A stretch of DNA of 64,000 nt from Parapedobacter composti (GTDB lineage: Bacteria; Bacteroidota; Bacteroidia; Sphingobacteriales; Sphingobacteriaceae), in contig NZ_FOLL01000003.1 in NCBI RefSeq assembly GCF_900112315.1, positions 1 to 64,000 of the forward strand, in the 5' to 3' direction. Under the pieces are notes generated by a model. The model saw only the letters and a list, made by a program, of their open reading frames with translations. It was not told where the DNA came from and ran no database searches. A program made the position numbers and the translations under genes. Numbering within the stretch: the stretch's first letter is position 1; each line of letters starts with the position of its first letter. Below are positions 40,942-62,263 of the stretch, piece after piece.

Positions 40942-41031
40942 TCACCTTCTTTGCCATACTCATTTATAATCAAACCGGCATTGCCTTTTGGTCGGTATTG
41001 AATTAATCGTTAGATTTGACTGTTAATGAAT

Positions 41032-41131: not shown

Positions 41132-41710
41132 ATGTCGTCTTACAAATCGTATACCGATAGCGAATTGCTCAGTTTGGTTGCTGCCAACAACCACGGCGCG
41201 TATACGGAAATTTACAATAGATATGCCGCTTTGCTTTACGTGCATGCCCGCAGAAAGTTAGCAGACCGTGAAGATGCAAGAGATATTATCCAAGAACTAT
41301 TTACCGCCTTCTGGAATAACCGGGCTTCGTTGGACGAGGAGATTGAATTATCAAAATACCTTTATGCCGCTGTACGCTATAAAATAATCAACCACTTTGC
41401 ACGTAAGAAGCTGAAAACAGCTTATCTGGATACCTTAAGAAACACAGCGGAGATTGAACGGGCGGCGCCGGATCACCGGGTTCGGGAAACGGAACTCAAG
41501 CAATTGATAGAACGGGAAGTCAACCTATTGCCGCGCAAAATGCGCGAAATTTTCTGTATGAGCCGCCAACAAAACCTTTCCCACCGGGAAATCGCCGAAC
41601 AACTCCATATTTCGGAAGCCACCGTAAAGAAACAGGTCAACAATGCGTTGAAAGTACTCCGCGTTAAGCTGGGTCCGCTTTTATCGTTGTGTAGCCTCCT
41701 CCTTTTTTAA
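41132..41710 (+). CDS. ECF-type RNA polymerase sigma-70 factor
   Basis: This 192-residue sigma factor has region 2 (about 20-90, with AYTEIYNRYAALLYVHARRKL and DIIQELFTAFW) and region 4 (about 125-178, LPRKMREIFCMSRQQNLSHREIAEQLHISEATVKKQVNNAL shown here in parts: MREIFCMSRQQNLSHREIAE). It has the Bacteroidota-type size. It is followed by a FecR anti-sigma gene 88 bp downstream and a SusC receptor with an STN domain, the standard trans-envelope signalling set. The sequence suggests autoregulation through the 14-mer above. Confidence 0.93.
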   Translation: MSSYKSYTDSELLSLVAANNHGAYTEIYNRYAALLYVHARRKLADREDARDIIQELFTAFWNNRASLDEEIELSKYLYAAVRYKIINHFARKKLKTAYLDTLRNTAEIERAAPDHRVRETELKQLIEREVNLLPRKMREIFCMSRQQNLSHREIAEQLHISEATVKKQVNNALKVLRVKLGPLLSLCSLLLF

Positions 41711-41798
41711 TAAGCAACACACTTTTTTAATTTTTTTCTACACCCAGCGTCCGAGTTAGCTGACTACCTCCTATGTAAGTGGGGAATACCCAATTCGT

Positions 41799-42944
41799 AT
41801 GGATAAAAAGGATATTAAAAAACTTCTGGAGCGTTACTTGGCAGATGAATGCACAGACGCTGAACGCGCCATCGTGGAGGACTGGTACAACAGGCAGCAC
41901 TCCGAAGCGCCCCACGACATACCAGCAGCGGAAATCGAGGCAGACATTGCGGCCATCAAAAAAGAACTGCCGCAACCTTCCGCCCGGCGACGCTTTGTAA
42001 ATCTGAGGTATCATGCTGCTGCGGCCATTGTCATTATCGGCATTGGCGTCTGGATTGTCCAACCGCGGTTTTTTAATAAACTGGAAGATGCTCCGTTAGC
42101 TGTTATAGACGAAAACGATATCCTGCCGGGAGGAAACCGGGCGCTATTGACATTGGCAGATGGTACGGCTATCCTTCTGGATGACAAGCCCGTGGGAAAG
42201 ATCGCACAAGAAGGAAATAACATTGTCTATAAAAATGCCGACGGCGAATTGGTTTATCGGCGGTCCGATGGTCCACCCTCAGAAGTTCGCGCAAACGAGT
42301 TCCACCGCATCACCACACCTCGCGGCGGGCAATGCCAGCTTACGCTGCCAGACGGGTCGCAGGTCTGGCTTAACGCAGAGTCGGCAATCAGATTCTCAGC
42401 CAATAATTCAGGAGACGAACGGATCGTTGAACTGACGGGCGAGGCCTATTTTGAAGTGGCCCGGGATGCAAACAGACCTTTCAAAGTGATCACCGGCAAG
42501 CAGGTCATCGAGGTTTTAGGAACACATTTCAACGTCAATAGCTATCCGAATGAACCTGTGGTGAGAACGACACTGGTCGAAGGATCCGTTAAAGTTTCGG
42601 AAAAAAGCGAAACACGATCCGTTGTACTCAAACCCGGCCAACAGGCATCTATTGGCGATCAACGCCGCCTAACGGTGCATGACGTGTCCGTAGCGGATGC
42701 CATTGCTTGGAAAAACGGGATGTTCAGTTTTAACGATTCAAATATCGAGTCCATTATGCGGCAGCTTTCACGCTGGTACGACGTGGAAGTCGAATTCGAA
42801 GGAAACAAACCCGAGTTCAAATTATGGGGCGAAGTATACCGGAATGTCAAAGCCTCGGAAGCGCTCGAAATATTAAGCTTTTTCAACCTGAACTATCGGA
42901 TAGAAACGGTCAACGGCGTCAAGAAAATCGTCATTTCCGGATAA
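41799..42944 (+). CDS. FecR-type anti-sigma factor
   Basis: This 381-residue inner-membrane regulator has an N-terminal cytoplasmic part (about 1-68, MDKKDIKKLLERYLADECT), one transmembrane helix (AAAAIVIIGIGVWIV, about 70-85), a periplasmic FecR domain (TPRGGQCQLTLPDGSQVWLNA, AYFEVARDANRPFKV) and a C-terminal DUF4974 domain (FSFNDSNIESIMRQLSRWYDV). In this class the STN domain of the outer-membrane receptor signals to FecR, which controls the sigma factor. Between sigma and FecR lie 88 bp. Confidence 0.93.
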   Translation: MDKKDIKKLLERYLADECTDAERAIVEDWYNRQHSEAPHDIPAAEIEADIAAIKKELPQPSARRRFVNLRYHAAAAIVIIGIGVWIVQPRFFNKLEDAPLAVIDENDILPGGNRALLTLADGTAILLDDKPVGKIAQEGNNIVYKNADGELVYRRSDGPPSEVRANEFHRITTPRGGQCQLTLPDGSQVWLNAESAIRFSANNSGDERIVELTGEAYFEVARDANRPFKVITGKQVIEVLGTHFNVNSYPNEPVVRTTLVEGSVKVSEKSETRSVVLKPGQQASIGDQRRLTVHDVSVADAIAWKNGMFSFNDSNIESIMRQLSRWYDVEVEFEGNKPEFKLWGEVYRNVKASEALEILSFFNLNYRIETVNGVKKIVISG

Positions 42945-42947
42945 AAG

Positions 42948-42961
42948 ATTTGTTAACCTTA
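42948..42961 (+). repeat. 14-mer shared with the sigma promoter (copy 2)
   Basis: The same ATTTGTTAACCTTA as at 41068-41081 follows the fecR stop codon directly. If it is a promoter element it would drive susC from within the operon, with a leader of about 150 nt. Confidence 0.45.
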
Positions 42962-43019
42962 AAATGTCAAATATGAAAAAATCAGCAGTTGCATAAAAAG
43001 AAAAATGAGGTAAAAAGAA

Positions 43020-43045
43020 CGTCTTCTGACTGCCATCAGAAGACG
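43020..43045. terminator. Hairpin in the fecR-susC leader
   Basis: CGTCTTCTGA (43020-43029) and TCAGAAGACG (43036-43045) form a perfect 10-bp stem with a 6-nt loop. No T-run follows, so it may be an attenuator-like or processing hairpin that separates regulator from structural genes. Confidence 0.45.
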
Positions 43046-43121
43046 CGGATTTGTTGAGTTTACCCATTGGGATGATTTTAACTAAGCATTATTAACGAGT
43101 AACCCAAGCATTACAAAAGTA

Positions 43122-46100
43122 ATGAAATTAGGCTTTTACACAATGGCCAAAGCAACTATTTGGCCGCTTCCACAACGATTAAACGGGGCAGAAAGCCCTT
43201 ACTTAAGCAACCATCTTATCACAAAAGGAAAATGGATCATGCGATTCAATCTAATTGTAGCAAGTTTGATACTGGTTTTCACACAAGTCGGAAAGGCAGG
43301 TTATGCACAGAAAGTCACCTTACAGGTAAAAAACATGCCCGTGGAGCAGGTGCTCCAATTGGTCAAACAACAGACAGGATATGTGTTTGTATATAACGAC
43401 GAAAGCCTGAAGCAATTGAAAATCGATGTTTCGGTCAAACACGCATCCATTGACGAGGTTATGGAGGCCTGTTTAGCCGGCCTGCCGTTTTCGTATAAGC
43501 GTGTCGAGCGCAATATCCTGATTAGGCAGGATGCTGAGCAACTCCCTGCGCAGGCACCTGCTCGGCAGCCCCGGGAAATCACGGGCCAGGTTACCGATAT
43601 GGACGGGCAACCGCTGGTAGGAGCCACGGTAGCTGTAAAAGGTACCGCCATCAGCACCGTAACCGACCACAGCGGCAGGTATCGCCTAGCCGTCCCTTAT
43701 CCTGAGGCTATATTGGTATTTAGCATGGTCGGTCATGAATCCCTTGAACTGAATGCAGACCAACCTACGGTAAACGCACAAATTAAGCCATCCATCAGCC
43801 ACATGGATGAAGTCGTGGTAATAGGATATGGCACGCAACGCAGATCCTTGGTCACAAGCGCCATCAGTAAACTGCCCATAGACGAGTCTAACCAGCGTCA
43901 GGTTGCCAGCCCCGCCCAGTTGCTGGACGGCCGGATTCCAGGTGTTACCGTCTCCACCGGCTCGGGCAACCTGGGCAGCGGCGAACGTATGAGTATCCGC
44001 GGTATTTCGTCGCTAAGCGCCAGCAATGAACCGCTATACGTCATTGACGGTATTCCCATTACCAACCAAAACAGCAACCTATACGATTTCGGTGAGTCGA
44101 TGAGTTCGCTGGCCACATTGAGCATCACTGACATCGAATCAATAGAAGTCTTGAAAGACGCGGCTTCCGCGGCCATATACGGTTCCCGCGGCACCAACGG
44201 TGTGGTTGTAATCACCACCAAATCAGGAAAAGAGGGACGCTCCGATATCCGCCTGAATGTTAGTACCGGAATAACGAAGTTCCCTTATCTAAACAAGATA
44301 AAAACCGCCAATTCGAGCCTATACATCCGTGATTTCAATGAAGGCGTCGCCAACTACAATGAACAATACGGACTAAAAATTGGTGATCCGGGTTATAAGT
44401 TGCCGATAGCCAATCCATTTGGCGACCTGCCAGACACGGATTGGATGAAGGTTATTACCCAAACCGGTTCTTTTTACAACATCGATGCAGCCTTTTCAGG
44501 CGGAACGCAACGGAACAAAAATTACTTCGCCGCCAATTACACCGATCAGGAAGGCGTAATCAAAACCAACCGGATGCAAAAGGCGAACCTTAGGGCTAAG
44601 GTAAGCTATCAGCTGGCCCCCTGGCTCGAAATCGGCACAAATAATTCCGGCAATTACGTCAGAAATAACCAGATACCGGGTGCCAGTCTTGGCACAACTA
44701 TCATTGGACGGGCAATCCAACAACGGCCATTCGACAGGCCTTATAAACCCAACGGCGATTATTACGTGGGCGGTACAGACGAACTGGTGTTCCATAACCC
44801 ACTGCAGGTACTTAATGAGGAGAATGTGTACATCCAAGACCTGAGGTACCTCGGTAACTTCTACACCACAATCAAGCTGAAAGATAAATGGTCTTGGAAT
44901 CAGTCGTTCAACGCAGACGTGACCCAGACCTATGACCATACTTATTACAACGAACGGCATCCCTACGGCTTGGGTATCGGCCGGCTATTGGACCGTAACC
45001 GGCTGATCCGGAATTACCTGTATGAAAACGTCGTCAATTATGACGATAAATTCGGAGACCTTTCCGTCAATGCAATGGCCGGACACGCCTTTCAAAAGGT
45101 AACAACGCGGACAACCTATATTGACGCCCGGGGCTTCCCTTCTCCTTCTTTCGTGGTGGCCAGCGCGGCAGCTGAAACTATGGCCTCATCCGGCCTTGGT
45201 ATCTACGCAATGGAATCTTACTTCGGAAGAGCCACCTTCTCGTATTTAGACCGCTATATCCTTACGGGAACACTGCGTACCGACGGATCTTCCCGATTTG
45301 CCAGAGAAAACCGCTGGGGATGGTTTCCCTCCATTTCAGTCGGCTGGAATGTTTCCAATGAACCGTTTATGGCGGGGAGTGAAGCCGATGTCAAATTCCG
45401 CCTCAGTTACGGAAAAACCGGCAATCAAGACGGACTGGGCAGTTATGTTTACCAAGCACTCATGTCTGGAGGGTACAACTATGGTGGCTTGAGCGGCATT
45501 GCGGTAACGACATTTGGAAACCGGGATCTCACGTGGGAAAAAGCCGACCAATTTGATGTAGGCTTCGATGTCGCGCTGCTGAACGGCAAAATCAATATGA
45601 TTTTTGACCTGTATCAAAAGAATACAGCAGACCTGATTTACTCCATGCCCGTCCACGCCACAACAGGCGTTACATCAATCACCACAAATATCGGTTCCAT
45701 GCGCAACCGCGGAGGTGAATTTTCGTTGAACACACACTTTCGATTCGGACAGCTCCAGTGGTTGTCCCAGTTTAATATCGCCACCAACCGGAATAAAATC
45801 ACGGCCCTAATCGGAGATAATACACCGATAAGCATCGGTGGAAACCGTGCCCTTCAAGTGGGTAAAGAAGTCGGCGCCTATTTCCTCTTTGTTCAGGAGG
45901 GAATTTACCAATATGACGGCGAGGTGCCAAAGGCACAGTATGATATCGGCATCCGGGCCGGGGATGTCAAATGGAGGGATGTAGACAACAACGGCATTAT
46001 CAACGACAATGACCGGGTACTTGTCGGCTCAGCCAATCCGGATTTCTTCGGCGGATGGAACCATACGCTCCGGTATAAGGGGCTATCGCTCGATGTCTTC

Positions 46101-46535
46101 TTTTCCTATATGTACGGAAACGACGTTTATGCACAATGGCAAGTCGATGTGGGCCGTCTTGGCCACCGCAATGCCGTACTGGTAGAGCATGCCGAAAATC
46201 GTTGGACAGGCCCGGGTTCAACAAATGTATATCCCCGCTCTCTGAATGGCGATATCAACAATACCCGGAATTCCGACCGCTTCCTCGAAGATGGCTCGTT
46301 TATCCGGCTGCGCACCCTTACCCTAAGCTACAATTTCCCGCAACGCGCGCTCGGAAGGTACCACATGAAAGGGCTACGCGTATTTTGTCAAGGCGATAAT
46401 CTTTTCCTGCTCACCCGGTATCCGGGCTGGGATCCACAGGTCAGCAATAACCTCGACCCCCGCTTCTTCAATGTGGATACGTTCAATGTACCTCAGCCGC
46501 GCACGTTTACGGTAGGTCTTAATCTCAACTTCTAA
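43122..46535 (+). CDS. SusC/RagA TonB-linked outer-membrane transporter with STN domain
   Basis: This 1137-residue outer-membrane protein has a signal peptide region (about 40-62), an STN signalling domain (about 65-130, VTLQVKNMPVEQVLQLVKQ), a carboxypeptidase-D-like domain (about 150-225, EITGQVTDMDGQPLVGATV), a plug with MDEVVVIGYGTQRRS, NEPLYVIDGIPI and VLKDAASAAIYGSRGTNGVV, and a 22-strand barrel. The STN domain fits control by the adjacent sigma/FecR pair. It works with the SusD protein that follows after 11 bp. Substrate is unknown. Confidence 0.95.
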   Translation: MKLGFYTMAKATIWPLPQRLNGAESPYLSNHLITKGKWIMRFNLIVASLILVFTQVGKAGYAQKVTLQVKNMPVEQVLQLVKQQTGYVFVYNDESLKQLKIDVSVKHASIDEVMEACLAGLPFSYKRVERNILIRQDAEQLPAQAPARQPREITGQVTDMDGQPLVGATVAVKGTAISTVTDHSGRYRLAVPYPEAILVFSMVGHESLELNADQPTVNAQIKPSISHMDEVVVIGYGTQRRSLVTSAISKLPIDESNQRQVASPAQLLDGRIPGVTVSTGSGNLGSGERMSIRGISSLSASNEPLYVIDGIPITNQNSNLYDFGESMSSLATLSITDIESIEVLKDAASAAIYGSRGTNGVVVITTKSGKEGRSDIRLNVSTGITKFPYLNKIKTANSSLYIRDFNEGVANYNEQYGLKIGDPGYKLPIANPFGDLPDTDWMKVITQTGSFYNIDAAFSGGTQRNKNYFAANYTDQEGVIKTNRMQKANLRAKVSYQLAPWLEIGTNNSGNYVRNNQIPGASLGTTIIGRAIQQRPFDRPYKPNGDYYVGGTDELVFHNPLQVLNEENVYIQDLRYLGNFYTTIKLKDKWSWNQSFNADVTQTYDHTYYNERHPYGLGIGRLLDRNRLIRNYLYENVVNYDDKFGDLSVNAMAGHAFQKVTTRTTYIDARGFPSPSFVVASAAAETMASSGLGIYAMESYFGRATFSYLDRYILTGTLRTDGSSRFARENRWGWFPSISVGWNVSNEPFMAGSEADVKFRLSYGKTGNQDGLGSYVYQALMSGGYNYGGLSGIAVTTFGNRDLTWEKADQFDVGFDVALLNGKINMIFDLYQKNTADLIYSMPVHATTGVTSITTNIGSMRNRGGEFSLNTHFRFGQLQWLSQFNIATNRNKITALIGDNTPISIGGNRALQVGKEVGAYFLFVQEGIYQYDGEVPKAQYDIGIRAGDVKWRDVDNNGIINDNDRVLVGSANPDFFGGWNHTLRYKGLSLDVFFSYMYGNDVYAQWQVDVGRLGHRNAVLVEHAENRWTGPGSTNVYPRSLNGDINNTRNSDRFLEDGSFIRLRTLTLSYNFPQRALGRYHMKGLRVFCQGDNLFLLTRYPGWDPQVSNNLDPRFFNVDTFNVPQPRTFTVGLNLNF

Positions 46536-46546
46536 CAGTGTCAGTG

Positions 46547-47809
46547 ATGAAAAGATATGTAATATTAATTGCTGGCGTCATGCTTAGCGCATGTGCCAAT
46601 CAACTCGATCAATATTCCTTTTCTGCCATTTCGCCAGATGCGGTCAGCATAAAGGATATTCCCGCCGTTCGGAACGGCATGTACAATAGTGTTCAGAACA
46701 GCCCGGGTGAACGTTCATTTATCCTGTTCGATATGCTTGGCGGCACCATCCAGACCAATACCGGCACTTCACGCGATCTGATCAACTCAACCTTGAGCCC
46801 GCTGAACACCTATATCGCTTCCGGTTGGAACGGCTATTTCAATGCGCTGTTTCAGGTGAATAATATGTTAGCCATTGCCAATCGCTTTCCAGAGGCCGAC
46901 CTTGCAGCACAATCAAAAGGCGAAGCGCATTACTTCCGGGCATACATCTACTACAGTTTAGTAACCCGTTGGGGAGCCGTCCCTATACTCCGGGGGCATA
47001 CGATGGAGCGGGTGCCTCGAGATCCGGTGAATGAAGTCTGGGCATTTATCGAATCAGACCTCGATGCAGCTATCGATTTATTGGGTACTTCTACCAATTA
47101 CTACTATGTGTCGAGAGATGCTGCCAGGGCGCTCAAGGCTCGGGCACTGCTTAGTCAAGGGAAAAACCAAGATGCTGCGGCATTGGCCGAAACGCTTATT
47201 ACCAGCGGTGCCTACCGTTTGGATGCATTCGAGAAAATTTTCCGGAAGCAGGGCAACACGGAAATTATTTTCGCTTTTGAAAACCGTACAGAAGAATCAA
47301 GCATCAATATCAGCGATCTGTTCTATACGTATGCACACCCAAACCGAGGCCAAGGCGTGTATAAGCCTACGCCGGAGGTATTGGCCCTCTTTGCAGACAA
47401 CGATAACCGGAAGGCCATTTCGCTTATCAACATTGCCGGGACGGAATGTATCAACAAATACCCGAGCGGACAAACCGGACGCGATCCGGTTATCATCTCC
47501 CGGATTGCAGAACTGTATCTCATCAGTGCCGAAGCGCAGGGGCGATCTGCCGGTGTCGGGCGACTCAATGAATTGCGCAGGTTTAGGGGTTTGGACAATA
47601 TTTTCCCCGCTAATGACGACGACTACCTGACAGCGATATTAACCGAACGTAAGCGCGAATTACTTGGCGAAAACTTCATGTACCATGATTTGGTTAGAAC
47701 GGGCCGGGCCAAGGAAGAACTCGGACTGCTGGATCACCAATTGGTGCTACCCATACCCGGCCGCGAACTGCTGCTGAACCCCAACCTGACACCAAACCTT
47801 GGATATTAA
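46547..47809 (+). CDS. SusD/RagB lipoprotein, cap of the SusC transporter
   Basis: From the ATG at 46547 the protein has 420 residues, starting with a lipoprotein signal (ILIAGVMLSAC, Cys about 16). SusD features are FNALFQVNNMLAIA, AEAHYFRAYIYYSLVTRWGAVPI (residues around 120-145, KGEAHYFRAYIYYSLV), tetratricopeptide-like repeats and a C-terminal RKRELLGENFMYHDLVRTGRA. It is small for the family (usual 480-600 residues). It forms the lid that binds glycan at the cell surface and shares the operon with the SusC before it. Confidence 0.93.
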   Translation: MKRYVILIAGVMLSACANQLDQYSFSAISPDAVSIKDIPAVRNGMYNSVQNSPGERSFILFDMLGGTIQTNTGTSRDLINSTLSPLNTYIASGWNGYFNALFQVNNMLAIANRFPEADLAAQSKGEAHYFRAYIYYSLVTRWGAVPILRGHTMERVPRDPVNEVWAFIESDLDAAIDLLGTSTNYYYVSRDAARALKARALLSQGKNQDAAALAETLITSGAYRLDAFEKIFRKQGNTEIIFAFENRTEESSINISDLFYTYAHPNRGQGVYKPTPEVLALFADNDNRKAISLINIAGTECINKYPSGQTGRDPVIISRIAELYLISAEAQGRSAGVGRLNELRRFRGLDNIFPANDDDYLTAILTERKRELLGENFMYHDLVRTGRAKEELGLLDHQLVLPIPGRELLLNPNLTPNLGY

Positions 47810-47843
47810 TAGAAATGAGGCATTAATAACGCAAGCTATCCAC

Positions 47844-48785
47844 ATGAGAACAATTAAAAATAAGCTATCGGCGGCATGGTTTATCGCCCTGTTTATGGTC
47901 AGCTGTTACAGCTGCGATAAAAACGTATATCATTTTGAATATTATGCGGAACCCAAAACCGAAACCGGCCGTAAACTGGTAGACGGGACGGATTTCTTCG
48001 CACAGATTTTTTCTGATACTACCTATGCGGTGGCCGACGGTGTGTCGGCCACCGAAATTCAATACCTGTCGCAGAAAGGACTGGCGATGAAGCTCTTTGT
48101 CTTTGACATAGACCTTAGCCACCCCGACGTATCAATCGAAGTGGCCACTCCATTCGGCCTGCCCGCTTATGCCATGCAGCCTATGACCGTGCAGGCCATT
48201 TATGCTGATGCCGAAGGGCATCGCGTTTGGGGAGGTATAAATGCCGACTTTTTCAACATGAGCACAGGTGAGCCCCGGGGCATTCTTTACAAGAAAGGCG
48301 AAGCTATCCGTACGCGGTTCGACAGTGGCACACGGAGCTTTTTTGCGATAAATAAAGCAGGAAAAGCATTTGTTGCGCCGAGTGAAGACTATCCGGCTAT
48401 CGCGGCTGACGATGTTATTCAGGAAGCGGTGGGCGGCAGTGTCAGTTTGGTCAGAGATGGTAACGTCGTTAAACACACCGATACTACCGTTGAGCCCCGT
48501 ACCTGTATAGGAGTAACCTCCGATAGCACAAGGGTGTTTATGGTGGCGGTTGACGGACGCAATTTCTCCTATTCCAACGGCATGCTGTTCGAAGAGCTCG
48601 GACAATGTCTTAAAGCGCTGGGAGCTGCCAATGGCATAAACCTCGACGGAGGGGGCTCCACCACATTTTTTATCCGCAATACACCTGCTTTCACCGAGGG
48701 CCGCTTCGAACTAAGAAATTGGCCCTCTGACAATGGCGGAAAGGAACGCGCCGTTGCCAACGGACTACTTATCATTTCCAAATAA
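47844..48785 (+). CDS. Phosphodiester glycosidase (NAGPA domain) lipoprotein
   Basis: This 313-residue product (start ATG 47844; an earlier in-frame ATG overlaps susD) carries an export signal with a likely lipid Cys21 (FMVSC). The NAGPA-type domain covers about 90-310: AIYADAEGHRVWGGINADFF, PRTCIGVTSDSTRVFMVAVDG and the conserved GINLDGGGSTTF near residue 268. The human relative removes GlcNAc from a GlcNAc-1-phosphodiester (mannose-6-phosphate uncovering enzyme); bacterial relatives act on phosphodiester-linked sugars. With SusC/SusD in front, it may trim phosphodiester-containing glycans at the surface. This is inference. Confidence 0.87.
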   Translation: MRTIKNKLSAAWFIALFMVSCYSCDKNVYHFEYYAEPKTETGRKLVDGTDFFAQIFSDTTYAVADGVSATEIQYLSQKGLAMKLFVFDIDLSHPDVSIEVATPFGLPAYAMQPMTVQAIYADAEGHRVWGGINADFFNMSTGEPRGILYKKGEAIRTRFDSGTRSFFAINKAGKAFVAPSEDYPAIAADDVIQEAVGGSVSLVRDGNVVKHTDTTVEPRTCIGVTSDSTRVFMVAVDGRNFSYSNGMLFEELGQCLKALGAANGINLDGGGSTTFFIRNTPAFTEGRFELRNWPSDNGGKERAVANGLLIISK

Positions 48786-48808
48786 ATGACGGCTTAAGAA
48801 AACGCACT

Positions 48809-50566
48809 ATGCAAACAATAACAAACTATATCGGTATCATTGGCTTATTGCTGGCCTTCTTTACCGCATGCACAGAAAAGAAAGGTCTTGGTAGCTTCGA
48901 ACCCTTGACCCCTGAATTTTCTATCGAAACGAATACCATCAACGTGGGGAAGGAAGGAGGAGAATACCTTATCAACGTCGAATCAAACCTGCCCTGGCGG
49001 GCCAGAAGCAACGCAGACTGGATCAGCTTCAAAAGCGAAAATGCGTTGGCAGACGGAGCCTTTACCTTCGAAGTAACACGCAACCGAACAACCGAGCCGC
49101 GTGTCGCTGAAATCATTGTGTGGGTAACCAAGGAACACGAGAAAACCCTTCAGGTCGTCCAAGCACCAAGCGACCCAAGCGATTTGGCAACACACTATTA
49201 CGTCAAAACGGACGGTAACGAAACCAATTCAGGATTATCTTGGGCAGACGCCATTCCGTTGCAGAAAGCCCTGGACGAAATGGTTAACGGCGACGTCATC
49301 CATATTGCTGCCGGTACGTACCTGCCTTCCAAAACCATATCCGGTGGCAGCGCCGCAAATACTGGTGACATCACTTTTGAGATACACAGCAATGTCACGT
49401 TAATCGGCGGATATCCCGCGGATGCCGCGGACGGCGCTATTGCAAACCCGCAAGTGAACCCCACCATCCTTAGTGGAAATACCCCAGCGGGTCGGGTTTA
49501 TCACACCGTGGCCATCACTGCGCCGCTGCAAGACGGCCAACAGGTGGTTCTGGAGGGCCTGTCAATAAAGCACGGCAGGGCCGCCGCCAGCGGCACGGGA
49601 AGCATCAGCGTCAGTGGGGTTCCCTTTTACCGGTTTTACGGTGGAGGGTTGATTATCGGCAGGTCAACTGTTGACGTGATCAACTGCGAAATTTCAGATA
49701 ATGAATCTGGCTTACATGCCGGCGGCGTGTATATAGCAGGCGGAGGCACGGTCAGGTTCGATGGCAGTGCTATTAGAAATAACCGGGCCACAACAAATTC
49801 CTCAAATGGCGGGGGTATTTTTATCGATGCATCTACCGTTTACTTCAACAACTGTGAAGTTTCCGGCAACATGACTACCGGTGTCGGCGCCGGCATTTAT
49901 GCCTTCAATGCCACACAACCCACATACACCTACATCTACAACACCACCGTCGCAAACAACAACAATAACGCAAATAATGTAAACGAAACCCGTAGAGGCG
50001 GAGGTTTTTATGCACGCGAACATTCGGTCTCTGTAATCGTCAATTCAACATTCTACGGGAATACCGGCGGCCATGGGGCGGGCATCAGCCTTTATGGTAC
50101 TGCAACCGGCGCCTCGCGGATGACAATCATCAGCAGCACGATAACCCGAAACAACGCTTATAACAATGGTGGTGGGGTTGAAATAACCGCCAACACCACG
50201 CTGAACGTATTCAATACCATCATATCGGGCAACCAAGCGGCCAACGGAAACGATGTATACGGCAACGGTAGCGATTTGTCATACAGCGTTCTGGGAAGCC
50301 GGATACTGGATGCTAATGGTGACGACGTTCCGGGGCAATCGTTCGACGCCGAAACGATGTTGGGCCATTTGGCTGACAACGGCGGCGAGACCAAAACCAG
50401 CCTGCTGACGGCAAGCTCTCCCGCTGCCACGCTGGGCATGACGGCATCCGCTTTGGAAGCGCTCGGCGCCACCCTTACGCCCGCTATCACGCCGGAAGTG
50501 ATTGCCAGCGACCAAAACGGAAAATCGCGGACTGGGAAAACCGCTATGGGGGCCGCAATACCTTAA
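48809..50566 (+). CDS. BACON/parallel beta-helix surface lipoprotein
   Basis: This 585-residue protein starts with a lipoprotein signal (IIGLLLAFFTAC, Cys21). A BACON-type Ig domain (about 42-115, INVGKEGGEYLINVESNLPW) precedes a long right-handed beta-helix (about 130-560), with repeats such as NCEISDNESGLHAGGVYIAGGG and SSTITRNNAYNNGGGVE. BACON domains are thought to attach enzymes to mucin or glycan. The helix resembles polysaccharide-lyase/glycosidase or choice-of-anchor proteins, but I cannot assign a catalytic activity. It is the last gene of the ECF-controlled locus; a terminator follows 38 bp later. Confidence 0.8.
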   Translation: MQTITNYIGIIGLLLAFFTACTEKKGLGSFEPLTPEFSIETNTINVGKEGGEYLINVESNLPWRARSNADWISFKSENALADGAFTFEVTRNRTTEPRVAEIIVWVTKEHEKTLQVVQAPSDPSDLATHYYVKTDGNETNSGLSWADAIPLQKALDEMVNGDVIHIAAGTYLPSKTISGGSAANTGDITFEIHSNVTLIGGYPADAADGAIANPQVNPTILSGNTPAGRVYHTVAITAPLQDGQQVVLEGLSIKHGRAAASGTGSISVSGVPFYRFYGGGLIIGRSTVDVINCEISDNESGLHAGGVYIAGGGTVRFDGSAIRNNRATTNSSNGGGIFIDASTVYFNNCEVSGNMTTGVGAGIYAFNATQPTYTYIYNTTVANNNNNANNVNETRRGGGFYAREHSVSVIVNSTFYGNTGGHGAGISLYGTATGASRMTIISSTITRNNAYNNGGGVEITANTTLNVFNTIISGNQAANGNDVYGNGSDLSYSVLGSRILDANGDDVPGQSFDAETMLGHLADNGGETKTSLLTASSPAATLGMTASALEALGATLTPAITPEVIASDQNGKSRTGKTAMGAAIP

Positions 50567-53116: not shown

Positions 53117-55024
53117 TCACTTAACGGAGCGGCCCGGCGAGCCCTCGATAAAACGCACCCTGAACCGACCGGCTGTATTTGCCGGAATTTCAGCATCAAA
53201 GCCAACCATTACCGTCCCTTTATTCTCTTGGTTATAGTCCCCGTAATTATAATCGCCGAACTCACATTTGTATTGCGAAGGATTCTCCGATGGCCGTATC
53301 ACCAGTTTAAAGGGAACATTAGCATCAAATAGTAGCAGCATGATTTTTCCCTGCTGAGAAAGCCTAATGGTTTGCTTATCCACAATTTCGGCCGATGAAG
53401 GTGTTACCATATTCCACCGCAGATTCACCGGCTCGGCGTTCGACTCAACCAAATCTTCTACTTCAAGATATTCATCGGCTACTATTCGCGCTTTCCGGGT
53501 AGCCGTCTTTAGTTCATCGCGAAAGTTTAAAACCGGCGTCAGATCTACTTTAGCACCCAGCTCTCTGTCGCCTTCATAAGTTTCGATGATCTCCGCTTTG
53601 CCCATCACGTTGTGGCGCTGATTATTGATGGTCAGTGTGTTATGGTTAAGATTGTTATACCTAAAAATATCCCAACGCTGTGAATGTTGCTCCATATTCC
53701 AGAGATCCACTCCCTTAGACTCCAACGTAATATAACTCTGTAAGCCGAAATCCATTGCCCACCTCACATTCCCTACATCATACACGAACGTACCCTGATC
53801 CATATGGCCATGCGCGTCATAAGCTCTCCCCCCTTTAATTCCGAGGTATTTTCCTTCCCCTGTCTTCCAGCTTGTGCGGGCGATAGATACGGGCGTGATT
53901 CCCCGACCCGTGAACACGTTCTTTGACGGTGCCCTGACATCGGATAACGTCAAGTTCTTTCCGAAAATGAGGGCATTGGGCAACAATCTTTCTTCATCGG
54001 AGTTAGTTTTTCTGGTATATATTCCTTTATTGATTAAGGGTATTTCCTGATATATCAAAGTCGGGTCGTCCAACTTATCCGCAAACCAAAACATCGAGGC
54101 GGATGCAGAAACCGATCTGCCGCAATCGTAGTAGTTGAAATAGTATCCTGACGGACCTGACGCAAACAGCATGTAATATGCCGACTCCATAAATCCGGGA
54201 GCGTTGGAAAGACCGTTATCTGAACCCAATGCGCTTTCCAGCGCGTCCAAAAACATCACCTGAAAGCTTGTGCCGTAATTCCAATAGCTGGGCCCTTCCG
54301 GATAATTTCCATCCGGAGCATAAGTCTGCAATGGCAAAACAGTGGATTTCAACGCCCTTTCGATGATAGCTATCGATTGTTCGCGTTCGTCTTCGAAAAT
54401 CGCCAGGGCACCATACACCAGCCCGCCATTGCATACGGGGTTCCAGTTGTTATGGCGCTCAAGAAACGATGCATATTCGGGCATATACGAAGGAACGAAA
54501 GCCTTTTCCACTATCGCTTTACGAACGTTTTCCCGCGTGCTTTCTTTCAGATCGTCATATAACCAGTCGTATGCAATGGCAACCGCCATGCACATCTCTC
54601 CCACATCAAGGAAGTGAGAAGGGTTCCAGGTCTCAAAAGAGCAGACCGCGTTAAGTTCCTTTTCCGCCCGGTCAAGATACCGGATATCCCCGGTCATGCG
54701 GTAACTGTATGACAAATAGTATAACCGCGTAAGCGCTTTCCTGGAAACGGCCAGCAAACGTTTACCCTGTTTTTCGAATACGAGCACGGGTTCAGCCAGT
54801 AACCCCTCACAGACCTCTTTGATGTAGGTGTCGATGCGTTTAAACTCCGGATTTCGCACAAGGGATGATTCAATCAGTTTTTCTTCCCCTTCGGCCAGCA
54901 AAAGCCTAGGGTGGTTTGCCAGTTTTAAATAGTCATATGACCGCGTCGCCGCTTGCTGTGTATGACACGATAAGAAAAAGCCCAACAAACCTATTGCCGA
55001 AAAAATCTTTAATATCACTTTCAT
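53117..55024 (-). CDS. Heparinase II/III-family polysaccharide lyase lipoprotein
   Basis: This 635-residue protein has a lipoprotein signal (AIGLLGFFLSC, Cys20). An alpha/alpha-toroid fills about 35-330, with HNNWNPVCNGG (191-201) and EGPSYWNYGTSF (243-254), which hold likely catalytic Asn and Tyr residues. A beta-sandwich domain follows (about 370-620), with YDAHGHMDQGTFVYDVGNVR (402-421), the heparinase II/III metal/catalytic His region. Such enzymes cleave uronic-acid glycans by beta-elimination; whether the substrate is heparan sulfate, hyaluronan, alginate or another polymer cannot be told. It is the last gene of the leftward PUL operon. Confidence 0.88.
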   Translation of the reverse strand: MKVILKIFSAIGLLGFFLSCHTQQAATRSYDYLKLANHPRLLLAEGEEKLIESSLVRNPEFKRIDTYIKEVCEGLLAEPVLVFEKQGKRLLAVSRKALTRLYYLSYSYRMTGDIRYLDRAEKELNAVCSFETWNPSHFLDVGEMCMAVAIAYDWLYDDLKESTRENVRKAIVEKAFVPSYMPEYASFLERHNNWNPVCNGGLVYGALAIFEDEREQSIAIIERALKSTVLPLQTYAPDGNYPEGPSYWNYGTSFQVMFLDALESALGSDNGLSNAPGFMESAYYMLFASGPSGYYFNYYDCGRSVSASASMFWFADKLDDPTLIYQEIPLINKGIYTRKTNSDEERLLPNALIFGKNLTLSDVRAPSKNVFTGRGITPVSIARTSWKTGEGKYLGIKGGRAYDAHGHMDQGTFVYDVGNVRWAMDFGLQSYITLESKGVDLWNMEQHSQRWDIFRYNNLNHNTLTINNQRHNVMGKAEIIETYEGDRELGAKVDLTPVLNFRDELKTATRKARIVADEYLEVEDLVESNAEPVNLRWNMVTPSSAEIVDKQTIRLSQQGKIMLLLFDANVPFKLVIRPSENPSQYKCEFGDYNYGDYNQENKGTVMVGFDAEIPANTAGRFRVRFIEGSPGRSVK

Positions 55025-55117
55025 TGTTACTTAGTTTTACTATGCCTGGGTGCCTTTCGCCTCATCAGAATACCGGTGCGAGCACCGCGGAAAACGATGC
55101 CCTGCCGCCGATATCGA

Positions 55118-56845
55118 TCACCAATGCAACCGCTGGTCGAGCTTGGTATTTATTGTGACTTCCTGTAAAGGGTAAGGTAATAAGTAGTGCTTTGCCCGAT
55201 CAAACGTAACTCCGGGCTCCAAATAGGTTTGGTGGAATGCATTGTTCTCCACATACATCGGCTGAAATTTAATCGCTTGGTTGGTTTCCACAAGCTTGTC
55301 TTCCAGCAGATTCCAACGCACCAAATCCTGCTTTCGCAGGCCCTCAAAGCATAGTTCCCTCAACCGTTCATCTACCAGTTCCTTAAAAAAATCATCGTGG
55401 TTTAGACTCCCAGCATAAGGCTCAAGCCCCGCCCGTTCCCTTACCGTATTCAGGCTGTTCACCGCTTCTGCTGTGGCGTTTTTAGTTCCGAACCTTCCTC
55501 CGATAATGGCTTCTGCATGCATCAGCAATACATCGGAATAACGTAAAATCGGAAAATTGATGCTTGTGTAATTCGGATCGGTTGCCGATCCCGTTACGTT
55601 GTTCAAAATCGTGTACGCGGCATCCACGATACTGCCCTGCGCCTTCAGTGCATTCAAGTCGGTCGGCTCCCACCGCCTGTATTTCCCGATTCCATACTCC
55701 TGATGCAAGGGATTATCGAAAATATAGCTCATGGTAAACCGCTGGTTGGCACTGGAGTAGTTGTTGCGGTATCCAGCAATGTTCCATTCCCTGCGGGTGT
55801 CTTCCAACAAATAAATATTGTAAACCGGTACGGCCACATTCACATTGGCAAAGCCCCGCGGGATGTCGGCTGTCCCCACGAACTCCACCCCGTTGATGTT
55901 GCCGATCCGTCCATGTACATTCAGCCCCAAGGCAATCAGGTTTCCAAATGAAATTTCGAATAACGATTCCCGGAGGTCATACCGGTTCTGCAAATAATTC
56001 ATAAAGTGGTTCCGGTAGCTCTGCGGATCGGCCGAAAAAGGAACGATGCCATGCCACCCGTCCCGGATAATGATTTCGCACTGTTCCTGAGCTTTCTCGA
56101 AATATTGTTGGGGGTTCTCAAAATAACAATCCGCCTCGTTATCCGCCAGATAGGGCTGAAAGCCACCCATCCGCAGATACAACCGGGCCAGCAAGCCGTG
56201 CGCGGCCATCTTGTTGGGCTCTCCCGGCACATACTCCGAACTGCTGGCATGGTGTAGATGCGTGGCGGCAAACAGAAAGTCCTTTTCCACTTGCTGATAT
56301 ACTTCAAGAACTGGCGAAGGCGCAACGTTGTTGTCGGCTTGGGATGAACTGGGGGTCAGCCTCAACGGCACCGGCCCGAACCAGTTAGCCAGGGTAAAGT
56401 AGCAAAACGCCCTCATGAAGCGTGCTTTCGCCAAATAACCGTTGTATTTTTCCGGCGTAAAGGCTTCCTGATTTAAATGCTTTTCGAGCTGGTTCACCAG
56501 TTGGATGCAGCTATACAGGTGCAGCCATAGGTTTTTGACCTCATCACTTGATGACGTGTAACCGAGCCGGGCTGCAGCCCAGTTGGCGGCCGAGGAGTTG
56601 GTATACATCTCATCTGTACCGCTCTCCAGCATCACATTAAACTTGTAGCCATACATATCGTCATTAGCCATTTCACTATAAATGCCTGAAAGTGCCATCT
56701 CCACTTCCGCCTCAGACGAATAAAACGTTTCATCCTTCCACGATGAAAGGGGATCCAGGTCGAGGAACTTATTGCAGCCCGACAGGCCCAACGCCGTGAA
56801 ACAACAAGTGGCGATAACATACATTCGGGATAGTCTCGTTTTCAT
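55118..56845 (-). CDS. SusD/RagB lipoprotein of the second PUL
   Basis: This 575-residue outer-membrane lipoprotein (signal CCFTALGLSGC, Cys24) has the SusD pattern: NKFLDLDPLSSWKDETFYSS after the Cys, YLAKARFMRAFCYFTLANWFGPVPL (about 140-160), and a C-terminal ELVDERLRELCFEGLRKQDLVRWN and HYLLPYPLQEVTIN. Length is typical. It lies 29 bp downstream of its SusC partner and 93 bp upstream of the lyase gene in the same operon. It would bind the polymer or oligosaccharides at the surface. Confidence 0.95.
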   Translation of the reverse strand: MKTRLSRMYVIATCCFTALGLSGCNKFLDLDPLSSWKDETFYSSEAEVEMALSGIYSEMANDDMYGYKFNVMLESGTDEMYTNSSAANWAAARLGYTSSSDEVKNLWLHLYSCIQLVNQLEKHLNQEAFTPEKYNGYLAKARFMRAFCYFTLANWFGPVPLRLTPSSSQADNNVAPSPVLEVYQQVEKDFLFAATHLHHASSSEYVPGEPNKMAAHGLLARLYLRMGGFQPYLADNEADCYFENPQQYFEKAQEQCEIIIRDGWHGIVPFSADPQSYRNHFMNYLQNRYDLRESLFEISFGNLIALGLNVHGRIGNINGVEFVGTADIPRGFANVNVAVPVYNIYLLEDTRREWNIAGYRNNYSSANQRFTMSYIFDNPLHQEYGIGKYRRWEPTDLNALKAQGSIVDAAYTILNNVTGSATDPNYTSINFPILRYSDVLLMHAEAIIGGRFGTKNATAEAVNSLNTVRERAGLEPYAGSLNHDDFFKELVDERLRELCFEGLRKQDLVRWNLLEDKLVETNQAIKFQPMYVENNAFHQTYLEPGVTFDRAKHYLLPYPLQEVTINTKLDQRLHW

Positions 56846-56874
56846 GATCGATTAAATGAACGTGTTTACTTGAT

Positions 56875-59800
56875 TTAAAAGGAAAGCTCCAATCCGGCTG
56901 ATACCGTTAAACTCTGCGGGTATGCCGAGTAATCCAATCCGGGTGTCAATGCTCCGAACCTGCCCACCGATACATCGGGATCATAACCTTCGTATTTCGT
57001 CAGCGTCAACAGGTTCTGCGCAGAGAGCGACAGTCTGCACCGCTTCATCCGCAGACTCGAAAGCATCCGTTCGGGGAGGTTGTACCCCAGAACAACTGTT
57101 TTCAGCTTAATGTAAGACCCATCATCCACATGCCGCGAATCCAACTTGTAGCCGAAAGGTGTAAGCAGGTTGGTGCCATCGAATCGCATCCCGCCGATAT
57201 CGGTTTCAGGATTGGTAGGGGTCCAGATATTTGCCAATGATTTCAACCCGTTTCTATTAGTATGGTAGATGCTCCCGTATTCTGATTTATTTCCGTTCAG
57301 GATATCGAAACCATAGGCCCACTGTAGAAGAAACTGGAAGTCAAATGACTTATAATTGAAGCTGTTGAATAAGCCTCCCGTATGTTTCGGGTGGGGGTTT
57401 CCGATGATGGTCCGGTCGTTCTGGTTAATAACCCCATCGCCGTTGATATCTTTAAACCGTACCATACCCGGTTTCGTGACGCTTTGATGCGTGGGTATCC
57501 CCTCTTTGAGCCGATACGCACCATCCTCGAACAAAAAATCATCCACTTGGTAAATCCCATCAAATACGAAACCGTATATCATGCCCACGGGCTGCCCCAC
57601 CCGGGTGATGTACTGGTATTCCGTCTGCATGAACTGTACGTCCCATTCCGGATCGGTCAGAATCTGCTGTTGCCCGCTGTTCAGCTGAATGGTTTTGGTC
57701 CGGTTAAACGCTATATTAAAGTTGGTACGCCACACGAAGTCACTTTTCCGGATGTTCTGCGACTCAAAGGTAAATTCTATTCCCCGGTTGGAAACCTCCC
57801 CTACGTTTTGCTGCACACGGTCAAACCCGGTGCTGAGCGCCATATCTGCGCCAAGTAAGAGATCTTTTGTGTTTTTTTGGTAAACGTCAACGGTTAAATT
57901 GAATTTCCGCATCAGTTCAAGATCCAGACCAATATTGCTCTGGGCGGTTTTCTCCCAGCGCAGATCGGGTACTGCCATGTTACTTTGGAAAGCGCCCGGC
58001 GAATAAGTCTGGCCAGTCCCCAATATATAGCCACTATTGGCATTCACGCTGAATAGGTTATACGCAACGAAATCACCGATCCGATTATTACCTGTTACGC
58101 CCCAGCCGCCACGCAGCTTTAAGTCAGAAATCGCCTCAATCGGCTTGATAAACTGTTCCTCCGAAAGTCGCCATGCCAAAGAAAACGAGGGGAAATAACC
58201 CCACCTATTGGCTTTCCTGAACTTTGAAGAACCGTCCGTGCGGAAATTAATGGTAGCCAGATAACGGTTGTCATACGCATAATTCGCTCTTCCGAAGAAA
58301 GAAAGCAAAGCGCTTCTAGAATAATCGGTCCGAGAAATAGTGGGGGTCGTTGCGATGCCGAGGTTGTGGATACCGAACTCATCCGTCGGCAGGTTCGTAT
58401 TTTGCAGGAAAGAATATTCGGAGGTATTGTACTGTGCCTCCACGCCCGCCAGCATACCATACGTATGCTTATTCTTCTGATCCTTAAACCGGAGGAGATT
58501 CGACGTGGACAGGATGTCCCACCGGTTGTCCGTAATCGACCCGTTTATTCCCCGGCTGGTCCGTGATGCTTCATACGTGTCCCTTTTATGGAATATCGTG
58601 GTCTCCCGAAGTGTGGTTCTATAATTGCCCATCGTGCTCCATTCAAACTTCTTCAGGAACTTGAAGTTGAATCCCAATGTCCCTGAAAGCACATCATCCA
58701 CGCGCGTACGCTCCGTATTGTTCAGTATCTTGACCGGATCGAAAAGATAGGGATCCATATCTTCAACGCTACTTTCATCATCTGATGTCCAATTAACCGG
58801 ATTTATCGGTCTGAACGAAATAGCATCGCGGATCACACTGTTTCTCGAATTGCCTGAAACAATGTGCCCATCGTGGTTATTCCGGCTGTACTCAACCTGT
58901 CCGTTTATTTCAAAATCAGGAGCTATTTTATGGGTGACCTTCAGCCTATTGTTGATTTTTCGGAAACCGGTATTAATCAACGTTCCGTCCTGGTTCAGGT
59001 AATTTCCGCTATACAGCAGGGTCGTCTTGACATTCCCGCCCCTCAGCGAAACGGTATGATTGGTCGACCGTGCGGTCCGGAAAATCTCCTCCTGCCAGTC
59101 GGTACCGGCCGCATTCCGGTACAGTTCAGGATCTACCCATCGGCGCAAAAAGAGCTGCACGTTTTCTCCGGGAACATAATTGTCATTGGCGTAGGCCAGT
59201 TTTTCCTGATATTTTACATATTCATAGGGACTGAGTACTTCCATCCTGTTGGGTATCGTTTCAAACCACGAAGACGAGCTTACATCAACATCGGTCCGGC
59301 CATCGCTCCGCCCCGAATGTGTGGTAATGACAACCACGCCGTTCGCTCCGCGCGAACCGTAGATGGCCGTCGCAGACGCGTCCTTCAAAATGTCAAAGCT
59401 CTTGATGTCCCGGGTGTTGATTGTCGAGGGGTCAAACCCTTCCAGGGGAACCCCATCTACGACATACAGCGGAGAATTGTCGCCCGTAATGGAGTTGCCT
59501 CCCCTGATCACGATATTAAGCGGAGCTCCCGGTGTCCCGTCCCGTGAGGTAACCTGCACTCCGGCTACACGGCCAGCCAACGCCTGGTCAAAATTCGCTG
59601 CGGGCGCCGCAGCCAGTTCCCTCGCATTAACGGTGCCCACAGCACCCGTGAGGTCTTCTTTCCTGACCACGTCGTACCCTACCACCACTTCTTCAAGCGT
59701 AATCTCGTCTGCGGTCAATATAATATCGATAATCTGCCGATCGGTTACCGGCTGTTCCTGACGCTGGAACCCTACGGCCGAAAACACCAGAATATCCGAA

Positions 59801-59997
59801 GGTCGGACACTATTGATCACATAGGCTCCCTCATCATTCGTCATTGTTCCCCTGGGTGCACCCTTCACGGCAACACTAACTCCCGAAATCGGTGTCCCGT
59901 CTGTTCCCCTCACGGTACCCTTGATGCTCCGCTGCGCGAACGTCGGCAATGCTGCTATACAAAGCAAAAACAATAATAGTAAGCTGATTGGTTTCAT
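56875..59997 (-). CDS. SusC/RagA TonB-linked transporter of the second PUL
   Basis: This 1040-residue outer-membrane protein has a signal peptide (1-21, ending LPTFAQ), a carboxypeptidase-D-like domain (about 23-95, SIKGTVRGTDGTPISGVSVA), the plug motif EVVVGYDVVRKEDLTGAV, DNSPLYVVDGVPLEGFD, ILKDASATAIYGSRGANGVVV and a C-terminal barrel ending in an aromatic-type LELSF. It has no STN domain, unlike the first SusC, which fits control by the hybrid two-component sensor at the window end rather than a sigma/FecR pair. It lies 114 bp downstream of the surface lipoprotein gene. Confidence 0.95.
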   Translation of the reverse strand: MKPISLLLLFLLCIAALPTFAQRSIKGTVRGTDGTPISGVSVAVKGAPRGTMTNDEGAYVINSVRPSDILVFSAVGFQRQEQPVTDRQIIDIILTADEITLEEVVVGYDVVRKEDLTGAVGTVNARELAAAPAANFDQALAGRVAGVQVTSRDGTPGAPLNIVIRGGNSITGDNSPLYVVDGVPLEGFDPSTINTRDIKSFDILKDASATAIYGSRGANGVVVITTHSGRSDGRTDVDVSSSSWFETIPNRMEVLSPYEYVKYQEKLAYANDNYVPGENVQLFLRRWVDPELYRNAAGTDWQEEIFRTARSTNHTVSLRGGNVKTTLLYSGNYLNQDGTLINTGFRKINNRLKVTHKIAPDFEINGQVEYSRNNHDGHIVSGNSRNSVIRDAISFRPINPVNWTSDDESSVEDMDPYLFDPVKILNNTERTRVDDVLSGTLGFNFKFLKKFEWSTMGNYRTTLRETTIFHKRDTYEASRTSRGINGSITDNRWDILSTSNLLRFKDQKNKHTYGMLAGVEAQYNTSEYSFLQNTNLPTDEFGIHNLGIATTPTISRTDYSRSALLSFFGRANYAYDNRYLATINFRTDGSSKFRKANRWGYFPSFSLAWRLSEEQFIKPIEAISDLKLRGGWGVTGNNRIGDFVAYNLFSVNANSGYILGTGQTYSPGAFQSNMAVPDLRWEKTAQSNIGLDLELMRKFNLTVDVYQKNTKDLLLGADMALSTGFDRVQQNVGEVSNRGIEFTFESQNIRKSDFVWRTNFNIAFNRTKTIQLNSGQQQILTDPEWDVQFMQTEYQYITRVGQPVGMIYGFVFDGIYQVDDFLFEDGAYRLKEGIPTHQSVTKPGMVRFKDINGDGVINQNDRTIIGNPHPKHTGGLFNSFNYKSFDFQFLLQWAYGFDILNGNKSEYGSIYHTNRNGLKSLANIWTPTNPETDIGGMRFDGTNLLTPFGYKLDSRHVDDGSYIKLKTVVLGYNLPERMLSSLRMKRCRLSLSAQNLLTLTKYEGYDPDVSVGRFGALTPGLDYSAYPQSLTVSAGLELSF

Positions 59998-60111
59998 CTT
60001 TTTCTGTTAAGAGAGTGTCGTCCTCGGCACTCCGTTTAATATTGGTTATCCATGCTGTCGTCTCACTTCCGTTAACCGGGCTGTCAGACGGTTTCGGTGA
60101 GCCGGAGATGA

Positions 60112-61716: not shown

Positions 61717-62263
61717 GGCCTAGTCATTATAAAAAAAGCAAAAGTACGTGACTGAAGCTTTCTTGGTTTTATAATTGTATTTAACGGTTTTTAATAATTG
61801 CGCTGTGGCAAATATCTAAAGGCAGAGGCGTCCGGCAAGGGGGATAAGTGTCTTAATTACGGGGGCATTTTGGACAGCACGTAGATAAACGCGTCCACGT
61901 TTCTATCCCCCACCCAGAGAGCCTTCCCGTGCCAGCCTTGCAGCTTTTACTCACATACCTTATTCGCCTACTTTCAAAAAAAGCCATTTTATACCTCTTT
62001 TTAAGATAATGTGCCCCCGTTGTGAAAACCGCAAACGTAATACATTGCGACACGTTAAGGATACTTTTTTAACCTATTTTAAACGATTATATGAAACTTC
62101 TGGGCATAAGGTGTCTCTTGACCGGTTTTCCGGGGCTTGCACGCATTGAATGCCTGGGCTGGTAAGCGCCATATACGGCACTATAACCGCACTGTCTGGT
62201 GCCTCTGAGCAGCAAGAACAGCGAGATCACATCAATTCAGAAATAAATTATAGTATATCAAAC
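61717..62263. promoter_or_regulatory. Divergent control region of the second PUL
   Basis: In this 547-bp gap the leftward operon has TACTTTTG (61746-61739). Two pairs of inverted repeats are visible: GGGGGATA (61839-61846) with TATCCCCC (61904-61911), and ACGGGGGCA (61859-61867) with TGCCCCCGT (62012-62020). A 30-codon leftward frame ending about 61857 looks faintly protein-like. No clear TAnnTTTG precedes the GH88 gene. Confidence 0.4.

Follow-up and report, generated by a model that had tools for sequence, protein, structure and literature searches.

Two published groups of SusCD gene clusters come close to the locus analyzed in this work. The Pus loci of Flavobacterium, which like some relatives of our locus have SusCD beside phosphodiesterases or phosphatases instead of the usual carbohydrate-active enzymes (CAZymes), are induced by low phosphate (PMC8115612), and a survey of CAZyme-free SusCD loci counted 576 with PF00149 or PF01663 genes (576/14,713), suggested nucleic acids as targets of such loci and, in the passage concerned, describes no conserved cassette (PMC6499787). 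The words NAGPA, glycosidase and DUF2233 are absent from the main text of the Pus paper (PMC8115612), as are NAGPA and DUF2233 from that of the survey (PMC6499787). Bacterial NAGPA domains are known in fusion with calcineurin-like phosphoesterases, a role connected with teichoic acid being among those proposed (PMC11188070). Here we analyzed a locus at positions 41132-50566 of the first 64,000 nucleotides of contig NZ_FOLL01000003.1 from Parapedobacter composti (assembly GCF_900112315.1), this whole stretch being called the window, in which genes for an extracytoplasmic function (ECF) sigma factor and FecR precede susC, susD, a NAGPA gene and a beta-helix lipoprotein gene (hereafter the cassette). 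Our results support NAGPA as a constant component of this SusCD unit and make it somewhat probable (about 0.55) that the unit takes up a glycoconjugate containing sugar-1-phosphate diesters and that NAGPA is its main cleaving enzyme. The features of the locus are as follows.

40987..41018, + strand: Bacteroidetes-type promoter-like match TTTG-N20-TANNTTTG, 113 bases 5' of the sigma gene
41132..41710, + strand: ECF sigma factor (Sig70_bacteroi1), 192 amino acids; Pfam sigma-70 regions 2 and 4, NCBIfam
41799..42944, + strand: FecR anti-sigma factor, 381 amino acids; Pfam FecR and FecR_C
43019..43046, no strand: hairpin of 10-12 pairs between fecR and susC, a putative terminator or regulatory site
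43122..46535, + strand: SusC-type TonB-dependent transporter with N-terminal STN domain, 1137 amino acids as listed; Pfam, NCBIfam
46538..47809, + strand: SusD-type lipoprotein, 423 amino acids; Pfam SusD-like_3 and SusD_RagB
47799..48785, + strand: NAGPA (DUF2233) lipoprotein, 328 amino acids as listed; Pfam PF09992
48809..50566, + strand: BACON and right-handed beta-helix lipoprotein, 585 amino acids; Pfam BACON 1.3e-6, Beta_helix 2.4e-10

When relatives of the NAGPA protein were searched in 201 genomes of the family and in wider genome contigs (54 loci), reading of the flanks revealed the order FecR-SusC-SusD-NAGPA, with the ECF sigma gene further upstream, in 27 loci besides the window; this was the search for conserved neighbourhoods that a preliminary description of the window had called for. 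These loci are distinct by contig, L080 (a near copy of L079) and the partial L090 being excluded and L076 (a near copy of L075) included. A beta-helix gene follows NAGPA directly in 19 of the 27 (20/28 with the window), in Sphingobacterium, Parapedobacter, Paraflavitalea, Paludibacter, Proteiniphilum, Mariniphaga and also further genomes of the family, and is not directly next to it in L042-L047, L049 and L088. The reverse test started from SusD: with eight SusD candidates scored per genome and matches at E <= 1e-10 accepted as NAGPA neighbours, 19 places at E <= 1e-60 were found in the 201 genomes, and all 16 places with at least 48% identity (15 genomes, window included) adjoin NAGPA, compared with none of the three at 34-38% identity. 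A chance neighbourhood is ruled out by this test together with the synteny across families. Absence of the NAGPA gene from orthologous loci, which the preliminary description had named as evidence that would overturn its proposal, was thus looked for and not found among the close SusD places. In one Parapedobacter cassette (L078:5311-8712) susC is broken into two open reading frames (ORFs).

Midpoint-rooted trees of SusD and NAGPA (27 rows) contain an identical split of 8 versus 19 with 100/100 support, which also divides the loci with from those without a beta-helix neighbour; the finer branches differ in part. These trees show that SusD and NAGPA have a joint history. Three loci (L034, L039 and L040) were omitted as duplicates of L074, L085 and L083, and because L034 was dropped and L074 lay outside the tree set, the locus of S. 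allocomposti is absent from the trees. The cassette is patchy, being found in 15 of the 201 family genomes (SusD at 48% identity or more). A survey of 395 genomes of the class, which scored four SusD candidates per genome and provides no independent linkage test, gave a SusD match at E <= 1e-75 in the P. composti genome only and a NAGPA match at E <= 1e-30 in one other genome. Contigs with the cassette also occur in Paludibacteraceae, Dysgonomonadaceae, Prolixibacteraceae, Flavobacteriaceae and Chitinophagaceae, and since its occurrence is patchy and yet extends over several families, our data suggest that the cassette moved between lineages.

Comparison with the closest relatives (L034/L074, L035 and L036) separated the regulatory from the uptake genes. 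While SusC (76-77% identity), SusD (78-80%), NAGPA (66-69%) and the beta-helix protein (60-63%) are well conserved, the sigma factor (29-30%) and FecR (29-33%) are conserved only poorly, and the window STN region has no match in the SusC proteins of these relatives; no STN domain was detected in L035 by Pfam. The window STN region is matched by 22 of 30 SusC ORFs, those lacking a match also including SusC of L037, L038, L047 and L079 and one piece of L078. The window sigma factor (50-53%), FecR (48-52%) and STN region (76-83 bits) are closest to those of L043-L046, which represent the other subtype. In the window, a regulatory module resembling one cassette subtype is therefore combined with the uptake module of the other; the swap covers 41132-43530, and its joint lies inside susC when L034-L036 and L043-L046 are compared. 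Because sigma, FecR and STN diverge while the rest is conserved, SusC-SusD-NAGPA-beta-helix looks like the functional core. L043-L046 carry an extra NAGPA gene between the sigma and fecR genes, in L043 also by Pfam.

The window NAGPA protein scored 123.7 bits against PF09992 (E 1.1e-35, cut-off 25). In a phmmer search against PDB it matched 3ohg, the DUF2233/NAGPA protein BACOVA_00430 of Bacteroides ovatus, over residues 52-328 (E 1.2e-30, only 30-31% identity) and also the vertebrate mannose-6-phosphate uncovering enzymes, which share its fold and motifs but have 20-24% identity to it and a role in trafficking, not uptake. The structure prediction that the preliminary description had suggested yielded an AlphaFold model (pLDDT 89.1) that matches 3ohg with Z 34.7 over 272 residues at 2.5 Å and the uncovering enzymes 6pku, 6pki, 6pkg and 6u11 with Z 23.5-24.9 (for 6pku Z 24.9, 227 residues, 2.4 Å). 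In all 19 aligned NAGPA rows, which take in paralogues at 20-26% identity, N148, P233-R234, D252-G253-R254, N281, D283-G284-G285-G286-S287 and T289 are invariant, and the motifs N-x-x-F, R-T, D-G-R and N-x-D-G-G-G-S are retained in all or nearly all rows. Comparable motifs are present in the alignment of the uncovering enzymes with the window protein, and we take the invariant residues to line the cavity. A lipobox-like cysteine, C39, occurs in 16/16 aligned cassette proteins, window included. The predicted fold and the motifs are shared with known phosphodiester glycosidases, and the NAGPA-type assignment of the preliminary description stands.

Additional phosphodiester or phosphate enzymes were found in at least six of the 28 loci, a lower bound because Pfam scanning was confined to neighbour families that recur and to a selection of genes. 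They comprise a glycerophosphodiester phosphodiesterase (GDPD) with DUF4996, an alkaline phosphatase and a glycoside hydrolase (GH) of family GH20 in L041; GH20, Exo_endo_phos and GDPD in L049; a NAGPA-NHL fusion and PF01663 in L042; an NHL propeller and Exo_endo_phos in L047; and an alkaline phosphatase, a second NAGPA of 733 amino acids and Exo_endo_phos in L075 and its near copy L076, where they were assigned by cluster. Since L041 and L049 adjoin in one genome, the six loci amount to four independent places (G107 twice, G026, G087 and Paludibacter twice). For a control, 150 of the 395 SusD matches in six genomes were used, with Exo_endo_phos left out. A GDPD, strong PF01663 or alkaline phosphatase gene lay within 10 kb of 3/3 listed SusD genes with NAGPA and of 1/147 listed SusD genes without it. 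Among the PF01663 matches listed (only those with E below about 1e-25, excluding sulfatase-like cross matches), 5 of 66 lie within 12 kb of NAGPA (0.74 expected, P 0.001); one of the five is part of an ECF-FecR-SusC-SusD-PF01663 set in the P. composti genome (G000:C41), 8 kb away from a different NAGPA, and another (G111) is on the opposite strand past the sigma gene. Alkaline phosphatase found no support as a general NAGPA partner in the 27 family genomes searched, where it was not enriched near NAGPA; its case stands on L041, L075 and the near copy L076.

Several of these neighbourhoods have features of their own. In G107, L041 and L049 form two cassettes side by side over about 30 kb with GH20, GDPD, alkaline phosphatase, Exo_endo_phos and NHL genes, and a transposase gene (DDE_Tnp_ISL3) lies upstream. 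GH20 is also present in L039/L085 (by cluster, the family being taken from L041 and L049). NAGPA is fused to the NHL propeller at L042:5210-7144, and in the 733-residue protein at L075:14170-16371 the domain is at the C-terminus. At L048:13119-15797, MOFRL/DUF4147 (presumably glycerate kinase-like) and GntP permease genes follow a SusCD-NAGPA-NHL set; NAGPA loci with other SusCD pairs carry PLD-like proteins (L050 and L053). In the P. composti genome itself, L052 on C41 has a different, divergent NAGPA gene next to the ECF-FecR-SusC-SusD-PF01663 set.

The accessory phosphatases of some relatives would also fit a phosphorus-scavenging system of the Pus type, which would serve to obtain phosphate rather than carbon and would be expressed upon phosphate starvation. 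SusCD in combination with a phosphatase or phosphodiesterase is present in the six loci named above and absent in the window. Polygalacturonases are beta-helix proteins. The Flavobacterium systems, induced by low phosphate and having SusCD beside phosphodiesterases or phosphatases, include abundant secreted lipoproteins homologous to polygalacturonase (PMC8115612), a possible parallel to the beta-helix lipoprotein of the cassette. However, our locus encodes a dedicated ECF sigma-FecR-STN circuit, and NAGPA would free a sugar while leaving a phosphomonoester. Circuits of this kind normally sense the transported substrate, and we regard phosphorus scavenging as quite unlikely to be the purpose of the cassette.

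Away from SusCD loci, NAGPA also occurs with phosphodiester enzymes. In 12 of 27 genomes, which were preselected for having NAGPA, a GDPD gene is found no more than 1.5 kb from NAGPA (12/114 GDPD genes, 0.22 expected). Because relatives are not independent, it should be noted that all Poisson values given here ignore kinship. The third gene after NAGPA-GDPD is Exo_endo_phos in both loci scanned (L128:7716-10197 and L129:8070-10826), and in L130 (G102) the NAGPA and GDPD genes are convergent. Hence phosphodiester enzymes accompany NAGPA in two arrangements, in SusCD cassettes and in separate NAGPA-GDPD neighbours. The second arrangement, together with the extra NAGPA between sigma and fecR in L043-L046, could indicate that NAGPA targets the envelope of the cell itself or the sigma/FecR signal rather than food. 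We consider this very improbable for the cassette, whose NAGPA gene is immediately downstream of susD and in the trees follows the history of SusD, and an envelope housekeeping role does not fit the patchy occurrence (15/201 genomes in the family, the P. composti genome only of 395 in the class).

The predicted model of the beta-helix protein (pLDDT 89.6) was best matched by pectate lyase Pel9A (1ru4; Z 31.0, 348 residues, 2.9 Å) and by a rhamnogalacturonan lyase (5olr; Z 26.8, 355 residues, 3.4 Å), both of which we take to belong to polysaccharide lyase (PL) family PL9, followed by further beta-helix enzymes from Z 26.2 down. At the sequence level, identity to 1ru4 and 5olr is 17-18%, and the family profile matched 1ru4 (E 0.0022) and 5olq (E 0.015) weakly and mainly in the N-terminal part. 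PL9 catalysis needs a lysine, as in Pel9A. Although the model has the PL9-type right-handed fold, no lysine reaches 90% conservation among 16 aligned cassette beta-helix proteins, and for this reason the protein was not classed as a PL9 enzyme; glycan binding or a different hydrolysis would be as likely a role as PL9 lyase activity. A lipobox-like C21 is present in 16/16 aligned cassette proteins, window included, and 15 of 18 aligned members have a BACON match at E <= 0.1. The preliminary description had stated that GH and PL genes of the usual type are missing. Indeed no GH or PL Pfam model reached its cut-off inside 41132-50566, where FecR scored 18.4 bits against Glyco_hydro_64 (cut-off 27), but the absence of a PL is uncertain because the beta-helix protein has a PL9-like fold. 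Of the features of a polysaccharide utilization locus, the window has the adjacent susC-susD pair and a regulator; Pfam detected no linked CAZyme from an established GH or PL family in this interval.

The structural and weak sequence matches to 1ru4, 5olr and 5olq would also suit an ordinary acidic glycan locus in which the beta-helix protein is the main enzyme, with NAGPA trimming a minor phosphate-linked decoration or having drifted in activity. This explanation appears unlikely, given that the lysine is not conserved, that SusCD-NAGPA is kept in 8 of 28 loci without an adjacent beta-helix gene, and that the scanned part of the neighbour genes contained none for pectin, uronate or GH88.

In the reading we favor, that of a glycoconjugate with sugar-1-phosphate diesters, the polymer would be bound or opened by the beta-helix lipoprotein on the cell surface, SusCD would import the fragments, and the NAGPA lipoprotein would release an alpha-linked sugar from phosphate and leave a phosphomonoester behind. 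The breakdown would be completed by general phosphatases, in some relatives with cassette-borne GDPD, alkaline phosphatase, PF01663 and Exo_endo_phos proteins. The window locus, which has no such helpers, would depend on enzymes elsewhere in the P. composti genome, where three NAGPA genes and matches to alkaline phosphatase (1), GDPD (3) and PF01663 (11, of which 2 strong) were detected. A substrate signal would pass from the STN domain of SusC via FecR to the ECF sigma factor, which would switch on susC-susD-nagpa-betahelix. We infer the protein location, the order of steps, the regulation and the substrate class. As a guess, teichoic acid-like wall polymers best match the set of GDPD, NAGPA, GH20 and phosphatase, since a glycerol-phosphate chain, N-acetylhexosamine (HexNAc)-alpha-1-phosphate links and HexNAc decorations could each meet a corresponding enzyme; phosphomannan, phosphorylated capsules and lipid head groups are other candidates. 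More tentatively, the SusC-SusD-NAGPA(-beta-helix) cassette might possibly be a mobile, dedicated outer-membrane uptake system for sugar-1-phosphate-linked polymers such as Gram-positive wall polymers, in which NAGPA would cut sugar-alpha-1-phosphate links and, in the expanded cassettes, GDPD would act on glycerol-phosphate chains, GH20 on HexNAc decorations and alkaline phosphatase on phosphate.

Uptake of a phosphodiester-linked glycan, as put forward in the preliminary description, is favored by the fixed place of NAGPA in the SusCD unit, by the fold and motifs of NAGPA and by the phosphodiester enzymes of some relatives, but the enrichment of the latter comes from few places, two of three in one genome, and a number of further observations weigh against this reading. 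When the cassettes of G000, G083, G159 and G183, which have no such enzyme within 10 kb, were added to the control, the fraction fell from 3/3 to 3/7 (Fisher 2.3e-4), and to 2/6 (P 0.004) when the two adjacent G107 cassettes were merged. Against a uniform null, GDPD near cassettes was not significant (2/114, P 0.053), nor was alkaline phosphatase within 12 kb of NAGPA (1/31, 0.41 expected, P 0.34; the 31 genes are 45 rows merged by hand from 27 genomes of the family). Extra phosphodiester enzymes were not found in most relatives, whose flanks are partly annotated, and a Pfam scan found no phosphatase, GDPD or phosphodiesterase genes in the window cassette. NAGPA also occurs without SusCD (L128 and L129; 82 matches in 27 genomes). 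Moreover, the activity of the NAGPA clade is presumed from homologues at 20-31% identity, among which BACOVA_00430 is said to be only weakly active on the vertebrate substrate (GlcNAc-P-Man), and the PL9-like fold predicted for the beta-helix protein would fit an ordinary acidic glycan as well.

With respect to gene structure, the ECF sigma, FecR, STN-bearing SusC, SusD, NAGPA and BACON/beta-helix genes that the preliminary description had recognized were all recovered by Pfam, and the sigma factor and SusC also by NCBIfam, on the + strand at the positions listed above. SusC contains STN, CarbopepD_reg, Plug and TonB barrel domains (Pfam) and scored 817 bits against NCBIfam OMP_RagA_SusC. From susC onward the genes are close-packed, with gaps of 2 bases between susC and susD and 23 bases between the NAGPA and beta-helix genes. 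The NAGPA ORF as listed overlaps susD by 11 bases; the ATG at 47844, which would place the two genes 34 bases apart, is more likely to be the start. The promoter-like match is weak, 1.8 chance matches being expected in the window.

Downstream of the cassette lie YicC (by Pfam) and then ORFs resembling Gmk and NadD (by eye), and about 2.5 kb downstream, behind these ORFs, a second locus begins (53117-63442), with heparinase II/III-like, SusD, SusC and BT4661-like surface protein genes on the - strand and GH88 on the + strand; the match to the BT4661-like model is just under cut-off. This locus is likely to serve a uronate-containing glycan. A link with the cassette was rejected, the locus lying on the opposite strand past housekeeping genes and its heparinase and GH88 genes being absent from all relatives displayed in the neighbourhood comparison.

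The preliminary description had also considered such a system not to be described in detail. This holds for SusCD with NAGPA, of which no description was found among the literature matches listed, subscription papers being mostly outside this coverage, but SusCD loci with phosphodiesterases have been published (PMC8115612, PMC6499787). No literature joining teichoic acid with SusD and polysaccharide utilization was found. The conserved pairing of SusCD with NAGPA provides one subset with a concrete chemistry that can be tested on known substrates, and it is a hint that the diet may include phosphate-linked sugar polymers, which are rarely studied in Bacteroidota. If the favored reading is true, it would link glycan uptake by Bacteroidota to the turnover of phosphate-rich microbial wall polymers, a pool of carbon and phosphorus, and would provide a source of bacterial enzymes for sugar-1-phosphodiesters.

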